Below, one piece after another: positions 2,354 to 10,160 of a stretch of DNA of 64,000 nt. The stretch spans positions 1 to 64,000 of the forward strand of contig CABHOP010000011.1 of the NCBI GenBank assembly GCA_902168085.1. Direction: 5' to 3'. The DNA is from an uncultured Bacteroides sp. (lineage in GTDB: Bacteria; Bacteroidota; Bacteroidia; Chitinophagales; Chitinophagaceae). Under the pieces are notes generated by a model. It saw nothing but the letters and a program-made list of their open reading frames with translations. It was not told where the DNA came from and did not search any database. Positions within the stretch are counted from its first letter, which is position 1; every line of letters starts with the position of its first letter. Both the position numbers and the translations under genes were made by a program.

Positions 2354-2815
2354 TTATGACAATAGCTGCTGACGCAACAGGAATTCAAGCTGGGCATTGG
2401 TAACACCAAGTTTTTCTGTTAATTCCTTCTCATCTTTCCGCAGTTTATACACATCATAAGCTCGCTGTATGGTCAGGTCCAGTTCCTCTTCATTCCATGG
2501 CTTGGTGAGGTAATGGAATATTTTTCCCTTGTTCACTGCATCTATCACAGCATTCAGGTCGGCATAACCGGTCAGCAAAATGCGCATGGGCTCCATATGT
2601 TTTTCCAGTATAGATTCCAGGAATTCTACACCGGTCATATTAGGCATGCGTTGGTCTGTAATAATAATATCAATAGGGTTATTGTCTAAAATCTTAATTG
2701 CTTCTTCACCACTGATAGCAGTAAATACATTATACTTCATCCTAAATGTAGCCTTGAACGAAACAAGATTGTTCTGTTCATCATCTACGTAAAGTATGTT
2801 TATTTTATCTGACAT
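2354..2815 (-). CDS. Response regulator receiver-domain protein
   Basis: ILYVDDEQNN...DIIITDQRMPNMTGVEFLE...ILLTGYAD...YLTKPW receiver motifs; no DNA-binding domain evident. Confidence 0.9.
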   Translation of the reverse strand: MSDKINILYVDDEQNNLVSFKATFRMKYNVFTAISGEEAIKILDNNPIDIIITDQRMPNMTGVEFLESILEKHMEPMRILLTGYADLNAVIDAVNKGKIFHYLTKPWNEEELDLTIQRAYDVYKLRKDEKELTEKLGVTNAQLEFLLRQQLLS

Positions 2816-3248
2816 TTGATTTTTATAATATGTTTTAATGGGCGCAAATGGTAGTATAAAAATCTGTACACGTAAGTTAAAGATTTTTAATAAATTTCTT
2901 GTTACCTTTAGATAATTTCTTTTTTATATAGCAAATTGTTGGCGTTAAACGTTATTTTTGCAGTAACAAAGATAATACAAGTCCATTACTGGTTAAGGCT
3001 GAGAGAGAGAAAAAAGCTATGATCGGGTAAATATGGGCACAAAAAATTTCCCACCCAATAATTCCTGTTCAAAAAACTAGGTATTGACATTTTACATTTT
3101 AGTATGTAAATTAATATTGTATTTGCACTCTACAGATTTTTTAAGGTAGGGTTCATTGATTATAAGCAGGTTATAACTATACATTGAAACAAAAGATAAA
3201 AAAAACGATGAACGCTCTTTTTCCGACAGTTAAAACACTGGACGCAAT

Positions 3249-3959
3249 ATGAGTGATATAAAATTTGTAATCAAAGCTTTCAGGGCTCCTGACGATACGG
3301 CTGCTTGCCAGAAGTTTGTAGATGGGCATATGAAAGTATTGAAGATATACGGTATTACCATGATAACCTCTGCCAATATAGAATGGTTTGAGGATCCGGA
3401 CACTTATGTGATACTGGTAGAATCGGAAGATGGTGAGAAGGTATATGGCGGGGCAAGGGTACAAGTTGCCGGCGGCAAGTATGAGCTTCCTATAGAAAAG
3501 GCTGTAAAGGATATGGATGACAGTGTCCATGAAACAGTAAGGCAATATGCCGAAAGAGGAACGGCAGAGTTTTGCGGCCTTTGGAATTCGCGAGAGGTAG
3601 CAGGTTATGGCATTGGTAGTATGTACCTGGGCAGGGCGGCTGTGGCTATTACCCAGCAATTGAAATTGACAACGTTATTCGGCCTTTGTGCGCCTGCAAC
3701 GGTAAAGAACAGTGCACGGGTGGGTTTTGAGATAGCAACTTTCCTGGGCAATAATGGCACCTTTTATTATCCTAAAGAAGACCTTATAGCTACTGCTGTT
3801 ATCATTAATGATACTGAAACTTTACTTACTGCAGAACCTGAAGAGCGCGATATTATTTTCGACCTACGGAAAAAACCTGTGCAGTCGAAACTGGAAAGTG
3901 GCCCTAAAGGCCGAATTTTGGATGTTGTTTACGACCTAAGTATACCCAATATCAATTAA
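3249..3959 (+). CDS. GNAT-fold acyltransferase, possibly autoinducer-synthase/FeeM-like
   Basis: Complete ORF directly upstream of the ThiF gene. GGARVQ...YELPIEK and AEFCGLWNSREVAGYGIGSMYLGRAAVAITQQLKLTTLFGLCAPATVKNSARVGFEI resemble the GNAT/LuxI-like layout; assigned by pattern only. Confidence 0.5.
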   Translation: MSDIKFVIKAFRAPDDTAACQKFVDGHMKVLKIYGITMITSANIEWFEDPDTYVILVESEDGEKVYGGARVQVAGGKYELPIEKAVKDMDDSVHETVRQYAERGTAEFCGLWNSREVAGYGIGSMYLGRAAVAITQQLKLTTLFGLCAPATVKNSARVGFEIATFLGNNGTFYYPKEDLIATAVIINDTETLLTAEPEERDIIFDLRKKPVQSKLESGPKGRILDVVYDLSIPNIN

Positions 3960-3978
3960 GCCAAAGTCATTAAAGAAT

Positions 3979-6291
3979 ATGGATGAGATAAAAATTGTAA
4001 AGCAGCAAACTTTACAATATCAGGATGTGTATATGCCCCAGGTATTGAGGCTTACCAACAGTGAGGATAAAGCTGTTTTCGATGAATTATTAAGTTCAGG
4101 TTTTGTTTTTTTATTCGATGAAATAAAAGACCAGTTAAAAGAGCTTTTCAAAATACGCAATCCTAAAAGGCAGCTTACAGATGCAGATTATGAATCGCTG
4201 CTGCAAGCCCATATCGGCCAGACAGATATAGATAGATATGGCGTATGGGTATATTACCCATGGAGCAAAAGGCTGGTGCACCTGCTGGATGAACCTGAAT
4301 TCATAGAAGTACGTACCAGCCGCAATCAATATAAAATAACTAATAAAGAGCGAGACCTGCTTGCGACTAAAAAGATAGGTGTTATAGGCTTGTCTGTAGG
4401 GCAGTCGGTAGCAGTGACGCTGGCAATGGAGCGCTCATTTGGAGAGATAAGGCTCGCCGATTTTGATGTGTTAGAGCTCACCAACCTTAACCGTATACGT
4501 ACCGGCTTGTTCAATCTCGGTATTAAAAAAGTAATATCAGTAGCGCGGGAGATAGCAGAGATAGACCCTTATCTGAAAGTAACCATATTTGAAGATGGCC
4601 TTACGGAAGAGAATATGGATAAGTTTTACCTGGAAGGGGGTAAGCTGGACCTGCTGATAGATGAGTGTGATGGTGTAGATATGAAAATACTATGCCGCAT
4701 CAAAGCCCGGGAACTGAAAATACCGGTGCTGATGGAAGGTAGCGACCGGTGTACGATAGATGTAGAGCGTTTTGACCTGGAGCCTGAACGTTCTATTCTG
4801 CATGGATATATCGATCACCTGGATGTATCTAAGCTAAAACACCTGAAAACGAACGAAGAGAAGATGCCATACCTGGCGCCTATTGTAGGCCTGGCAACTA
4901 TATCCAGCCGCCTGCGTGCATCGGGTATAGAAATAGGGCAAACAATCACAACATGGCCACAGCTGGCATCGGCTGTAACATTGGGAGGTGGGGCAGTAGC
5001 CGACATTTGGCGCAGAATGGCACTGAACCAGTATAAAGGTTCCGGCCGTTTCTTCCTGGATATGGATGAACTGGTAGGCGACCCTAAAGTGGAAGCACCG
5101 GAAGCAGGTGTTGCAGTTAACCCGTTTATACCGCTTAGTCATGACGAAGCATTACAACTGGCATTGAACGCGAATTGCCAACTACCGGTAAATGCCATAG
5201 CGATACCTGAGCCAGATGTAGAAAAAATTGTAGATGCAGCAGGTACGGCCCCATCGGGCGGAAATGCACAGCCATGGAAATGGGTGTATAACAAAGGTAT
5301 ATTATTCTTATTCTTCGACAGATACTATGGTTATTCTTATATGGACTATAAGGATACGGCCTCTTATATAGCATTGGGGGCAGCTATAGAAAATGCCGTA
5401 TTAAAAGCGCATGAACTGGGTTATGAAGTGAAGGTGAACCTGCACGAGCCATCAGGAGAAGATATATTGATAGCAGACTTTACCTTCTATAACACCAAAG
5501 TAGCCGGTGCGGAGCAACACGATAATGATCAGCTTTCCAAAGTAATTACGCAGCGCCATACCAATAGGAAAATAACGGAACGTGTAGTGCTGCAACCGGA
5601 GGTGCTGGAAAGCCTTAAAACAGCGACAGAATCTGTGCCGGGTGCAAAACTGAATTTTTATGAAGACCCGGCCGTACTGGAAGAAATAGGTAAGATTATT
5701 TCTGAAACAGATCGCTACAGGGTATTATATCCTCAAAGCCACTACGACTTCATCTTCCAGGAAATGAGGTGGACAGCTAAAGAAGCTGAAGAACGCAGAA
5801 CCGGTATTGAGATCAGCACACTGGAACTTACACCTGCAAACATGCTGGGCATCAGGTTGGTGAAAGACCCTATGGCGGTTGAGCTGTTACGGGATATAAA
5901 CGGCGCTGACATATTGCGAAGTACATCGATAAAAAATATGACAACAGCCCCTGTGGCCGGATTGCTTACGATGCCCACTTATTTGGGAACGGATTTTGTA
6001 AATGGCGGCCGCGCTTCAGAGCGGCTGTGGCTAAAAGCTACAGAAATGGGGCTGGCATTTCAACCAATGAATGTGCCCCTGGCATTCTTTGCCCGGCTGA
6101 TAGATAATGCTTCAGACCTGCCAAGAGAGATCATCGATGAGGTAGCTGAATTGTACCGGCGTTATAATAAAGCATTGCATAGGAATGAAAGCAGGGCGGA
6201 TATTTACCTATTCAGGGTATTTAAGGCAGAGCCACCTAAGGTTTTGCCATATCGCAAAAAATTAAGCGATATACTTGTATTCAATAGTTAG
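3979..6291 (+). CDS. ThiF (E1-like)-nitroreductase fusion, Rv1355c/MoeY-type
   Basis: ThiF-type Rossmann region KKIGVIGLSVGQSVAVTLAMER...IRLADFDVLELTNLNRI; C-terminal nitroreductase-type FMN motif AAGTAPSGGNAQPWKW. Confidence 0.8.
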   Translation: MDEIKIVKQQTLQYQDVYMPQVLRLTNSEDKAVFDELLSSGFVFLFDEIKDQLKELFKIRNPKRQLTDADYESLLQAHIGQTDIDRYGVWVYYPWSKRLVHLLDEPEFIEVRTSRNQYKITNKERDLLATKKIGVIGLSVGQSVAVTLAMERSFGEIRLADFDVLELTNLNRIRTGLFNLGIKKVISVAREIAEIDPYLKVTIFEDGLTEENMDKFYLEGGKLDLLIDECDGVDMKILCRIKARELKIPVLMEGSDRCTIDVERFDLEPERSILHGYIDHLDVSKLKHLKTNEEKMPYLAPIVGLATISSRLRASGIEIGQTITTWPQLASAVTLGGGAVADIWRRMALNQYKGSGRFFLDMDELVGDPKVEAPEAGVAVNPFIPLSHDEALQLALNANCQLPVNAIAIPEPDVEKIVDAAGTAPSGGNAQPWKWVYNKGILFLFFDRYYGYSYMDYKDTASYIALGAAIENAVLKAHELGYEVKVNLHEPSGEDILIADFTFYNTKVAGAEQHDNDQLSKVITQRHTNRKITERVVLQPEVLESLKTATESVPGAKLNFYEDPAVLEEIGKIISETDRYRVLYPQSHYDFIFQEMRWTAKEAEERRTGIEISTLELTPANMLGIRLVKDPMAVELLRDINGADILRSTSIKNMTTAPVAGLLTMPTYLGTDFVNGGRASERLWLKATEMGLAFQPMNVPLAFFARLIDNASDLPREIIDEVAELYRRYNKALHRNESRADIYLFRVFKAEPPKVLPYRKKLSDILVFNS

Positions 6292-6424
6292 TAAGCTTAT
6301 TAAATTAAGAAATGTAGCTTAACGGGTTGTGAATAATAACAAAGTGTGATATATTAGTGAGGTGTTAAGGCCAAAGCCCAAAATTGAGATAAAGACAACA
6401 AAATAAACAGATTTTGCACCCGTC

Positions 6425-8608
6425 ATGAACGGTATTACGAGGTATATAAATAAAGAAAGGTTTCGATTTAGTCTGGCAGGATTAATATTGTTGTTATTTG
6501 TTTGCGTAAAAGCACGGGCCGATGTATTTATCTATAAAAATGATAAAGCTGAAGTTTCTACAGTAGTACCGGGAATGGTATGGAGTGTGCTGGAAGATAA
6601 AGAAGGTGCTTTAACATATCAGCAAGCATTTAATGCTACCGGGTATCAGAAAATAGATAGGCAAATAGCCAACCTGGGTGTTTCCAATTCCGTCTTTTGG
6701 CTGAAGGCCACTGTGCATAATGGTGCCAATAGCTATCCGCTCCTTTTAATGCTGGAGCAACCGCAGATAGATAAGGCAGAAATATATTCCTTTTCTAATG
6801 GTTCATTAATATTGGTTGATTCTATCAGCAAATGGGAACCTTTTTATAACAGGACCTATCACGATGCCAATTACGTTTTCAACACCGGTGCATTGCCCGA
6901 TTCTACTGTAGAATTACTGGTAAAAATAAAGTCTTCCGCACAATTAGTCTTTCCGATAAAACTGGGTACAGAAAAGCAAATAGCTGAATCCAGCGACAAG
7001 AAAGAATTGCTGTATGCATTGTTTAGTGGCATTATCATAGTGATGTCGCTATACAACTTGTTTGTATACTTTACCGTACGGGACAAGAGCTATCTGCTGT
7101 ATGTTATTTATATACTTCTTGTAGGGGTTACGCAAACCACACTACCGGGCTTTACCTTTAAATACCTTTGGCCACAATCTTCGTGGATGGCTTTGCAAGG
7201 GCCTACCATATTTGCATGCCTGGGCGCTATGGCAGCCATAGAATTCATTAAGGAATTTCTGAGAACGAAAGAACACGTCAGGCGCTTGCATTACGGCTTG
7301 CTTGTTTTCAATGGCATATTCGTTGTAGGCTTGTTGTTCTCGCTTACCGGCAACCGCACTCTGGGTTTCCAGATAATGCAGGCAAATACTGCAATTGCTT
7401 CCCTGTATTCTTTATATACATCTTATCGTATTTACAAGCTGGGTTACCGGCCTGCCAAGTTCTTTTTATATGCATGGACGATATTACTGATAGGTGCGGT
7501 AGTATTTGTATTGAAAGATTCCGGTGTTGTTCCGTACAATACACTTACCACATTTGCCCTGCAGATAACGTCGGTAATTGAAGTTGTGCTGCTGTCATTT
7601 GCTCTGGCCGATAAAATAAATATTCTGCGTAAAGAACGTGAAGAAGCGCAGGCATTAGCCATTACAGCTGCTCAGGAAAATGCACGTATTGTAAAAGAAC
7701 AAAACGTGATACTGGAAGCAAAAGTGAATGAACGTACCAAAGAACTTAAAGCATCTAACGATGGCCTGAATAAAGCATTGAAAGACCTGAAGGATGCGGA
7801 GATGCAACTGGTAGAATCTGAAAAGATGGCGTCGCTGGGCCAGTTAACTGCCGGTATAGCGCATGAGATCAATAACCCGATAAACTTTGTGACCTCGAAT
7901 GTAAAACCATTGAAGCGCGATGTGGATATGCTCATCACCATGCTGAACCAGGTAGAGGAAATATCTTTGCTGGACGAACCGGCAGATGGTAAACGGCAAA
8001 AGATAGACAGCCTGAAAGAAGAATATGATTTCGATTATCTGAAAACAGAGATACAATATTTACTTAACGGTATTCATGAAGGCTCCAGTCGCACGGCAGA
8101 AATAGTGAAAGGGCTGCGTATTTTCTCGCGCCTTGATGAAGATGACCTGAAGAAGGCTGATATAAACGAAGGCCTGGAGTCTACCATGGTTATTGTGAAT
8201 AACCAGATAGACAATGTGCGGATAACCAAGAATTACGGCGACTTGCCATTGGTAGAATGCTATCCGGGCAAACTGAACCAGGTATTCCTGAATATGATAT
8301 CGAATGCCCTGCACGCCGTAAAATCAAGGCATGGCAATGAGAAGACGGGAGAACTGACGATAGGTACCTACAGGAAAGAGGATAAGGTGTATATTAGTAT
8401 TAAGGATAATGGCACCGGTATGAATGAGGATACCAAGAAAAAACTGTTTGAGCCATTCTTTACCACCAAAGATGTAGGTGAAGGTACTGGCTTAGGCCTT
8501 TCTATAGCTTATAATACCATCGTGAAACATAATGGAGCAATCACGGTAAATTCAGTGTTGGGGGAAGGCACCGAATTCCTGATTGAAATACCCATCGTTC
8601 ACCAGTAA
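6425..8608 (+). CDS. Membrane sensor histidine kinase with 7TMR-DISM-type N-terminus
   Basis: Signal peptide, extracytoplasmic region, run of TM helices ([36 protein letters not shown]...), coiled coil, H-box [22 protein letters not shown]-box and DNGTGM...[10 protein letters not shown]. Confidence 0.9.
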
Positions 8609-8617
8609 TAATGTAAG

Positions 8618-9712
8618 ATGTTGGAACAGAAGGATAAGATAAAAGTACTGTATATAGATGATGAGCCTAATAACCTCATCAGTTTCAAAGCATCTTTTCG
8701 CTTTGACTATACAGTGTATGTAGCGAATAATACGGATGAGGCGGTAGTACAGTTGCGCCAGCACCCCGATATCAGCGTAATACTTAGTGACCAGAAGATG
8801 CCGGATAAAACCGGTGTGGAGTTTTTTGAAGAGATAAGAAAAGAATTCCCCAACCCTGTGAGGATATTGATAACCGGTTATGCAGATATCGAGTCTGTAA
8901 TCAATGCCATCAACCGGGGCCATGTTTACCGCTATATCAAAAAGCCATGGTTGGAAGAGGATATAAAATCGTCTATAGAGCAGGCTTACAAATTCTACAT
9001 TACCACAGCCATGCTGGCGGTGAAGAATGATGAATTGCAAAAAGCTTATAACGAGCTGGATAAGTTTGCGTACAGTGCTACGCACGATATGCGCGGGCCT
9101 ATTCTAAGCGTGCTGGGTATAATAGACCTGGCAAAGAATACCGACGATATCAATGAAACCAGGGCCATGCTGGATATGATGGAAAATGCCATGCAGAAAT
9201 TGGATAACTATATTCAGAACCTGCACGACTATTACAGCATTCGCAGGGGTGAAGTGGCCATAGCTGAAATAAACTTTGAAGACACTGTAAAAGATTTGTC
9301 CGATATTTACGAGGTCAGCAGTAAAATGAGCAATGTTCGGTTCGTGAAAACGGTGGATCAGCAGGAAACTTTCAGGTCTGACGATGTTTCATTGAAAATA
9401 ATATTGAACAACCTGCTGTCCAATGCTTTTAAATATCAGCGTAAAGGCAATACGGACAGGCTGGTAGAACTGAAAGTGGAGGTAAGTAAAGGTATGGCAG
9501 TAATAACGGTATCTGATAATGGTATTGGGATACCGGAAAACAGCATCAACCAGATATTCAACATGTTTTACAGGGCTACTAGCGAAGAAGTGGGTTCCGG
9601 CTTTGGCTTGTATAATGTAAAGGATGCATTGGGGAAATTAGGAGGCAAAATAGACGTCTCATCAAAACAAAATGAAGGAACAACTTTTGTAGTAACAATA
9701 CCAAGTAAGTAA
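8618..9712 (+). CDS. Hybrid response regulator-histidine kinase (N-terminal receiver, C-terminal kinase)
   Basis: VLYIDDEPNN...LSDQKMPDKTG...ITGYAD...KKPW receiver; FAYSATHDMRGPILSVLG H-box; NNLLSNAFKYQ; DNGIGIPENS; GSGFGLYNV. Confidence 0.9.
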   Translation: MLEQKDKIKVLYIDDEPNNLISFKASFRFDYTVYVANNTDEAVVQLRQHPDISVILSDQKMPDKTGVEFFEEIRKEFPNPVRILITGYADIESVINAINRGHVYRYIKKPWLEEDIKSSIEQAYKFYITTAMLAVKNDELQKAYNELDKFAYSATHDMRGPILSVLGIIDLAKNTDDINETRAMLDMMENAMQKLDNYIQNLHDYYSIRRGEVAIAEINFEDTVKDLSDIYEVSSKMSNVRFVKTVDQQETFRSDDVSLKIILNNLLSNAFKYQRKGNTDRLVELKVEVSKGMAVITVSDNGIGIPENSINQIFNMFYRATSEEVGSGFGLYNVKDALGKLGGKIDVSSKQNEGTTFVVTIPSK

Positions 9713-9717
9713 CACAA

Positions 9718-10113
9718 ATGTCTCAGGAAAAATTGAATTTTATAGTAGTTGATGATAGCAAGCTCGATTGTTTTATTGCTGAGAAGATAATTCAGAATTC
9801 AGGCAGGGCTGAAAAGATCAATACTTTTCAGCAGGCTACAGACGCGTTGGAACATGTTAAGAACCTGCCTTTGCCGCATGGCAAAACCATCATATTTGTG
9901 GATATACAGATGCCGGTGATGAATGGCTTTGAGTTTGTAGAATCTTTTGAAACACTACCGGATGAAACGAGGGAGGCTATTTCTATCTATATGCTTTCAT
10001 CCTCTATTAATGAAAATGATATAGCACGTGTAAGGGGGTATGCTTCGGTAAAACAGTTTCTGAACAAACCGCTAACTAATAACTCGATAGCTATGGTACT
10101 GGAGCAATTCTAA
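9718..10113 (+). CDS. Response regulator (single receiver domain)
   Basis: FIVVDDSKLDCFIAEKII...IIFVDIQMPVMNGFEFVE...MLSSS...FLNKPL. Confidence 0.9.
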   Translation: MSQEKLNFIVVDDSKLDCFIAEKIIQNSGRAEKINTFQQATDALEHVKNLPLPHGKTIIFVDIQMPVMNGFEFVESFETLPDETREAISIYMLSSSINENDIARVRGYASVKQFLNKPLTNNSIAMVLEQF

Positions 10114-10126
10114 AAGAAGCAAATAA

Positions 10127-10160
10127 AATAAGCAGGCCGGTCATCCGGCCTTATTTTTTT
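10127..10160 (+). terminator. Terminator between convergent genes
   Basis: AATAAG..GGCCGG-TCAT-CCGGCC-TTATT then T-tract; also fits the opposite strand partly. Confidence 0.75.

Follow-up and report, generated by a model that had tools for sequence, protein, structure and literature searches.

A conserved signalling-type gene cassette of Bacteroidota with a TrzS-like fusion enzyme and a dedicated sensor kinase, and its possible N-acyl amino acid signals

Introduction

What places a putative acyltransferase and an adenylating, flavin-dependent fusion enzyme beside a set of phosphorelay genes, and could such a locus make the very signal that it senses? The question is raised by positions 2354 to 10113 of a stretch of 64,000 nucleotides (hereafter the window) from an uncultured Bacteroides sp. 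placed by GTDB in the Chitinophagaceae (phylum Bacteroidota), whose positions are those of contig 11 (CABHOP010000011.1) of a 3.58-Mb genome in 101 contigs (GCA_902168085.1). An earlier note made from the letters of this DNA had proposed that the two enzymes make an acylated, adenylation-activated and redox-tailored metabolite which the adjacent phosphorelay senses or controls. The locus represents a real, conserved and apparently undescribed family of signalling-type cassettes, and we consider it fairly probable that it is a self-contained cassette for signal production and signal sensing, belonging to an autoinducer-like family in Bacteroidota with N-acyl amino acid/oxazolone signals.

Results

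Layout and conservation of the cassette

The genes of the locus, followed by its non-coding features, are as follows.

2354-2815, minus strand: divergent single-domain receiver with a conserved C-terminal tail, similar by layout to PhcQ of Ralstonia (Response_reg, 9.7e-22; phospho-acceptor D54)
3249-3959, plus strand: 236-aa putative TrzA-like N-acyl amino acid synthase, the proposed signal synthase, with a putative GNAT/LuxI/FeeM-type fold (hhalign, Foldseek)
3979-6291, plus strand: 770-aa TrzS-like fusion of a ThiF cyclase and a flavin-dependent oxidase, Rv1355c family (NF005901; Pfam ThiF and Nitroreductase)
6425-8608, plus strand: 727-aa 7TMR-DISM sensor histidine kinase (Pfam 7TMR-DISMED2, 7TMR-DISM_7TM, HisKA, HATPase_c)
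8618-9712, plus strand: 364-aa receiver-histidine kinase hybrid (REC-kinase), PhcR-like in layout (Pfam REC, HisKA, HATPase_c; D58, H156)
9718-10113, plus strand: 131-aa terminal single-domain receiver (Pfam REC; D62)
2816-3248, no strand: 433-nt divergent intergenic or promoter region separating the receiver from the biosynthetic genes, with a sigma-70-like site at 3084-3112
10134-10151, plus strand: intrinsic-terminator-like hairpin closing the unit, a 7-bp G+C-rich stem then TATTTTTTTA, 21 nt past the last receiver
2333-2310: terminator-like hairpin beyond the divergent receiver

The coordinates and strands of the six open reading frames described in the earlier note were all borne out, and Pfam agrees with its domain calls for the fusion, the seven-transmembrane (7TM) kinase, the REC-kinase and the receivers. 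From the GNAT-like gene onward, the plus-strand genes are separated by gaps of 19, 133, 9 and 5 nt, and terminator-like hairpins (2333-2310 and 10134-10151) flank the cassette on both sides. Promoter-like sites, the sigma-70-like one at 3084-3112 included, were overall no commoner in the promoter scan than the shuffled expectation.

Conservation was assessed in 200 genomes of the same family as the window, with thresholds of E<=1e-60 for the kinase and E<=1e-6 for the GNAT. The sensor kinase was present in 64 of these genomes and the GNAT in 62; both occurred together in 62, the kinase only in 2, the GNAT only in none and neither in 136. Of the two kinase-only genomes, one comes from a fragmented assembly in which TrzS lies at the end of a contig, and only a partial kinase match was obtained in the other. 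Fisher p values for this co-occurrence (~6e-50 by genome and 2e-27 by genus) overstate the surprise, since the genomes are related. The kinase is essentially present once per genome and always adjoins the GNAT gene. Among 399 genomes sampled across the phylum, the GNAT was found in 13, from five families, and a full-length kinase in the same 13. Gene-order changes and overlaps accompany the cassette across the 37 genera of the family sample and the five families of the phylum sample. ThiF-positive loci are typically composed of a divergent receiver (present at nearly every related locus), the ThiF-oxidase and GNAT genes in either order, the 7TM kinase, the REC-kinase and often a terminal receiver.

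A GNAT gene that usually occurs without the kinase had been named in the earlier note as a finding that would speak against its proposal; this was never seen in the 200 and 399 genomes. Independent transcription, named likewise, is unlikely at the 25 of 67 relatives in which the GNAT and kinase genes overlap or lie <=1 nt apart (8 of them with a 4-nt overlap), an arrangement that indicates one transcript, while the 133-nt gap of the window itself allows two.

A contig from a metagenome-assembled genome (MAG) labelled Azovibrio restrictus (JANLJF010000075.1; our loci L035/L157) carries the whole cassette at 97-100% protein identity to the window, with TrzS as its least conserved member (97% vs ~100% for the neighbours). 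This record, betaproteobacterial by name, most likely represents a mis-named or contaminated MAG.

Predicted chemistry of the fusion and the GNAT-like protein

The 770-aa fusion matches the NCBIfam model NF005901, "Rv1355c family protein", with 776.9 bits against a cut-off of 476, over residues 13-766 of the fusion and positions 6-718 of the 722 in the model. Rv1355c is TrzS, which carries out ATP-dependent cyclisation followed by O2-dependent desaturation of the N-acyl tryptophan supplied by its neighbour TrzA; in the Mycobacterium smegmatis enzyme D217 is the ATP aspartate, and mutation of the flavin-site R540 impairs desaturation (PMC12856293). The conserved ThiF motifs are kept in the fusion. 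Its invariant D231 corresponds to the ThiF ATP-binding aspartate D217 of TrzS, R579 corresponds to the flavin mononucleotide (FMN)-site arginine R540, the +323 spacing (D217-R540) being the same in two aligned mycobacterial homologues, and Q651 is likely to be the Q/H residue in the AFQP motif. Judged by sequence, the fusion is a member of the TrzS/Rv1355c family and thus a predicted cyclase/desaturase of an N-acyl oxazolone pathway. A molybdopterin- or thiamine-type ThiF was rejected as an identity, the MoeB/ThiF matches being low-scoring against the 777 bits for the Rv1355c family.

The metabolite imagined in the earlier note gains support from this assignment, the TrzS family having exactly such chemistry (PMC12856293). 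The same note had mentioned azole-modified peptides as a setting in which nitroreductase folds are paired with E1-like proteins; the closest chemistry is instead oxazolone biosynthesis by TrzAS, OxzAB and TyzACB. Its label of GNAT for the 236-aa protein stands in part: the fold is weakly but consistently indicated, while no Pfam model names GNAT directly in the window protein. Acetyltransf_1 gives a weak match in 5 of the 69 sequences of the cassette GNAT family. Comparison of this family with the TrzA-like proteins beside TrzS in Rhodococcus and Nocardia by hhalign yielded a probability of 77 and an E of 2e-5 over 175 columns. The AlphaFold model of the window protein is poor (predicted local distance difference test, pLDDT, 45) and was built from four close sequences only; the top matches of this low-confidence model in the Protein Data Bank (PDB) by Foldseek are all GNAT folds, among them the acyl-homoserine lactone synthase BjaI and the N-acyl amino acid synthase FeeM, the two structures also reported for TyzA, likewise a FeeM/BjaI-like acyltransferase (PMC10404671). 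Residues H27, W46, P81, E107 and W112 are invariant across 68 homologues. On sequence and fold comparison, the protein is thus weakly but consistently indicated to be GNAT-like, with remote homology to the TrzA-like proteins encoded next to TrzS in actinobacteria.

A PDB sequence search using the GNAT and its profile returned nothing useful, the profile matched neither of two other actinobacterial neighbours (a 304-aa protein at L078 and a GNAT at L079), and no relative was found in the viral contigs searched with the profile or in the plasmids searched with the GNAT.

Related arrangements were observed elsewhere. On two Rhodococcus plasmids (L077, 6049-7740; L132, 6001-7736), TrzA-like genes stand divergent from an Rv1355c-family gene and adjoin a GGDEF gene; M. 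tuberculosis is reported to have this link to cyclic di-GMP (c-di-GMP) genes too, and in these Rhodococcus loci it is plasmid-borne. Some relatives have a second pair, consisting of a small separate ThiF near a separate nitroreductase-type protein (L109; G134:C138, G070:C23, G044:C469), which is possibly a TyzB/TyzC-like pathway or an unrelated pair. One run in a MAG labelled Patescibacteria (L038, 7418-13778) contains a 507-aa adenylate-forming-enzyme-like gene, a 381-aa ThiF, a separate nitroreductase, a 304-aa gene and a membrane histidine kinase, which suggests another oxazolone-like set with a kinase. At L060, two GNAT genes (6796-7515 and 8050-8760) with 59% and ~43% identity to the window GNAT share one cassette, which may reflect a pair of signals or the ongoing replacement of a synthase.

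Exchange of the tailoring enzyme

The fusion is found in about 27 of the 200 family genomes, and 12 others of the 200 have a ThiF protein with no recognisable oxidase domain. Cassettes lacking ThiF retain the receiver, the GNAT and the kinase, and nearly always the REC-kinase. The place of ThiF is taken by a carboxyl methyltransferase of the isoprenylcysteine carboxyl methyltransferase (ICMT) type in 9 genomes (PF04140; the nearest solved relatives are ICMTs), by a class-I S-adenosylmethionine (SAM) methyltransferase in 3 genomes that have no REC-kinase, by a flavin oxidase in 2 genomes (PF01565; E ~1e-59 to 4-cresol dehydrogenase) and by nothing in 8 genomes; no methyltransferase remnant was seen in the empty GNAT-kinase gap of one such locus (L099). 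Known members of the ThiF and ICMT types act on carboxylates, and enzymes of the 4-cresol dehydrogenase/vanillyl-alcohol oxidase type oxidise p-hydroxyphenyl compounds. All of these are plausible as modifiers of an N-acyl amino acid, and the activity of the 4-cresol dehydrogenase type on p-hydroxyphenyl compounds suggests that this amino acid may be tyrosine.

Co-divergence of the sensor domain with synthase and tailoring enzyme

The GNAT occurs in 12 of 15 genomes of the window's genus, in which percent identity to the window proteins was compared. Two loci that keep TrzS (L158/L159) show 87% identity in the GNAT, 74% in the 7TM domain, 78% in the kinase core and 80-81% in the REC-kinase. Where a flavin oxidase stands instead of TrzS (L081/L160/L161), the GNAT (85-87%), kinase core (78-81%) and REC-kinase (81-83%) are similarly placed and the 7TM domain is at 51-52%. 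At L162, with a divergent TrzS (46%), the GNAT is at 57% and the 7TM domain at 41%, with the kinase core at 78%, the REC-kinase at 82% and the upstream receiver at 88%; this receiver remains at 86-92% throughout. By these identities, synthase, tailoring enzyme and sensor domain form a variable block that is flanked on both sides by conserved sequence.

When the kinase core, REC-kinase and receiver were controlled for in 54 loci, GNAT and 7TM identity had a partial correlation of 0.45 (0/2000 permutations), and the corresponding values for the GNAT were 0.01 with the receiver, -0.17 with the kinase core and 0.29 with the REC-kinase. The terminal receiver, which is equally diverged, gave 0.12 (linear) and 0.15 (quadratic) with the 7TM domain, vs 0.62 and 0.61 for the GNAT. 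Pairs of loci with the same tailoring type also had 7TM domains more similar than expected (0/2000 permutations).

Sensor kinase and relay

The sensor kinase consists of an extracellular DISMED2 domain (53-181), a 7TM region (194-397), HisKA with H480 and HATPase (Pfam). The phosphorelay residues are retained throughout: H480 in 68/68 homologues of the sensor kinase, D58 and H156 in 65/65 of the REC-kinase, D54 in 62/62 of the divergent receiver and D62 in 32/32 of the terminal receiver, the last of which is missing from part of the cassettes. Pfam detected no DNA-binding domain in the kinase, the REC-kinase or the receivers. The divergent receiver is most conserved at its C-terminus (window 2354-2420), where the final positions reach 97% over 62 homologues; this suggests a tail for protein binding. 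In three loci of one genus (L082, L093, L101), the sensor kinase of the class-I methyltransferase variant, which has no REC-kinase, is followed directly by a PhcQ-like receiver. Plasmids searched for the REC-kinase gave generic hybrids only.

Discussion

The working of the cassette can be envisaged in four steps. By homology, the GNAT-fold protein would N-acylate an amino acid, probably an aromatic one, with acyl-coenzyme A or acyl-acyl carrier protein as donor. As in the TrzS family, whose active-site residues are present, the ThiF domain would then adenylate the carboxylate and close the oxazolone, and the flavin domain would desaturate it with O2 to an N-acyl oxazolone. Co-occurrence and co-variation suggest that the dedicated 7TMR-DISM kinase recognises the product through its extracellular/7TM part. 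From the layout, the REC-kinase hybrid and the single receivers would next receive the phosphate; these receivers, which have no DNA-binding domains, may exert their effect on an unlinked output through contacts between proteins, a mode of action also proposed for PhcS-PhcR-PhcQ of Ralstonia. We infer from these lines that the sensor binds the cassette's own product, as we do the N-acyl oxazolone nature of that product, the order of the relay and a role between cells. Since the tailoring enzyme is swapped among relatives, the cassettes probably make chemically distinct "dialects" with matched sensors. A broader proposition, which we hold to be evenly balanced, is that Bacteroidota possess a widespread Phc-like quorum-sensing family whose N-acyl amino acid signals are diversified into lineage dialects by exchangeable tailoring enzymes (oxazolone cyclase-desaturase, cyclase alone, methyltransferases and cresol-dehydrogenase-type oxidase), with the 7TM domain swapped along.

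Several observations weigh against a cassette that senses its own signal. The evidence for a GNAT fold is weak, no output gene is linked to the cassette at the locus, and the 133-nt gap between TrzS and the kinase makes two transcripts possible in the window. Sensors of the 7TMR-DISM type are also able to bind other external ligands. Rank-based partial correlations fall to 0.20 for GNAT-7TM vs 0.19 for terminal receiver-7TM; the co-variation thus rests on closely related pairs and by itself cannot exclude exchange of blocks by adjacency, and physical adjacency could yield it through block recombination.

Control of metabolite production by the phosphorelay in answer to an external cue such as stress or nutrients, with the metabolite itself not sensed and serving as an antimicrobial, surfactant or membrane lipid, is somewhat unlikely in our estimation. 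It would agree with the induction of oxazolones in proteobacteria by sub-inhibitory antibiotics and the antimicrobial action of N-acyl tyrosine derivatives (PMC12856293), and the gap ahead of the window kinase gene is in its favour; yet the sensor domain shifts with the tailoring enzyme or synthase and the kinase core does not, the kinase is tied to the synthase as strictly as the synthase to the kinase, and the cassette lacks an exporter, a resistance gene and any DNA-binding protein to regulate its own genes. Autogenous control, in which the sensor gauges the cell's own product as feedback on synthesis or envelope state with no population-level role, appears improbable. Passages of PMC12856293 describe tryptazolones as more abundant inside actinobacterial cells than in the medium, and the PhcQ receiver is suggested to act directly or indirectly on the synthase (PMC6989110); against this, passages of the former paper have acyl-amino acid intermediates building up mainly in the medium, and GNAT-only cassettes should make exactly those, while a sensor that diversifies together with the tailoring enzyme is a prediction of signalling between strains.

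Two further explanations concern the genes themselves. Conjugation or modification of a protein by ThiF in the manner of E1-like enzymes of bacterial ubiquitin-like or anti-phage E1-E2 systems, with the remainder regulating it, is very improbable: the ThiF domain has PADLOC E1-E2 matches that are weak and partial (best E 3.5e-10, ~110 residues), but over its full length the protein matches the Rv1355c family, which forms oxazolones, and the neighbourhood has no E2, ubiquitin-like or JAB genes, and E1-E2 defence was rejected. We give practically no credence to unrelated genes that are neighbours by chance in the window genome; nothing was found in support of it, and it is refuted by the co-occurrence counts, the gene overlaps and conservation in 37 genera and five families.

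The physiological role of oxazolones is described by the authors of the TrzAS study as a major unresolved question (PMC12856293). In the cassette lineage, enzymes of the oxazolone type never part from a single dedicated sensor kinase, so that the idea of an oxazolone as signal can be tested directly. A self-sensing cassette, if confirmed, would provide the first physiological role for oxazolones and an autoinducer-type system of Bacteroidota that is based on a GNAT; its swapped synthase, tailoring and sensor modules would form a natural collection for studying the evolution of signal specificity. A literature search whose coverage left out most subscription papers and bioRxiv preprints found no report of the cassette in Bacteroidota, nor of any GNAT-based autoinducer-type system for the phylum.

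Comparison with known systems

LuxM-LuxN and CqsA-CqsS are autoinducer synthases with polytopic sensor kinases. The cassette shares with them a predicted acyl-transferring synthase and a membrane sensor kinase, and differs in substrates, kinase architecture and relay. It resembles TrzAS (Rv1356c-Rv1355c; Mycobacterium/Rhodococcus, N-acyl tryptazolone; PMC12856293) in that a putative acyltransferase gene adjoins a ThiF-flavin oxidase fusion, which lies above the curated family cut-off and keeps the ATP aspartate and the FMN-site arginine, and in that actinobacterial copies too adjoin signalling genes (GGDEF). However, the cassette belongs to a different phylum, its fusion has 30-33% identity to actinobacterial fusions, its putative acyltransferase is related at profile level only, and a dedicated 7TM kinase and receivers stand in place of the c-di-GMP genes. 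With OxzAB and TyzACB (PMC12856293, PMC10404671) it would share the identical three reactions, whereas their ThiF subcluster differs from that of TrzS, TyzB and TyzC are separate proteins and no kinase is reported adjoining.

In Ralstonia, PhcS is a sensor kinase, PhcR a receiver and kinase with no DNA-binding domain, and PhcQ a PhcR-like receiver with a C-terminal part, and the sequences of synthase and sensor also divide the strains by type of signal (PMC8578825, PMC6989110). Compared by layout, PhcBSRQ and the cassette have in common a synthase, a histidine kinase, a receiver-kinase free of DNA-binding domains and a single receiver with a C-terminal part. In contrast, the methyltransferase PhcB produces the Phc signal, which is a hydroxy-fatty-acid methyl ester, while the cassette uses a GNAT and an exchangeable tailoring enzyme and has no linked PhcA-like regulator. 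A PhcB-type SAM-dependent methyltransferase as synthase is not present in the window (GNAT and TrzS), a class-I methyltransferase being found in 3 relatives only, beside the GNAT. As its synthase differs from PhcB, the cassette is regarded as Phc-like by anatomy and was not filed as a Phc member. Overall, the predicted chemistry adds a member to the known oxazolone kind, and what appears to be new among synthase-sensor signalling systems is its union with a Phc-like relay and with tailoring enzymes that can be exchanged.

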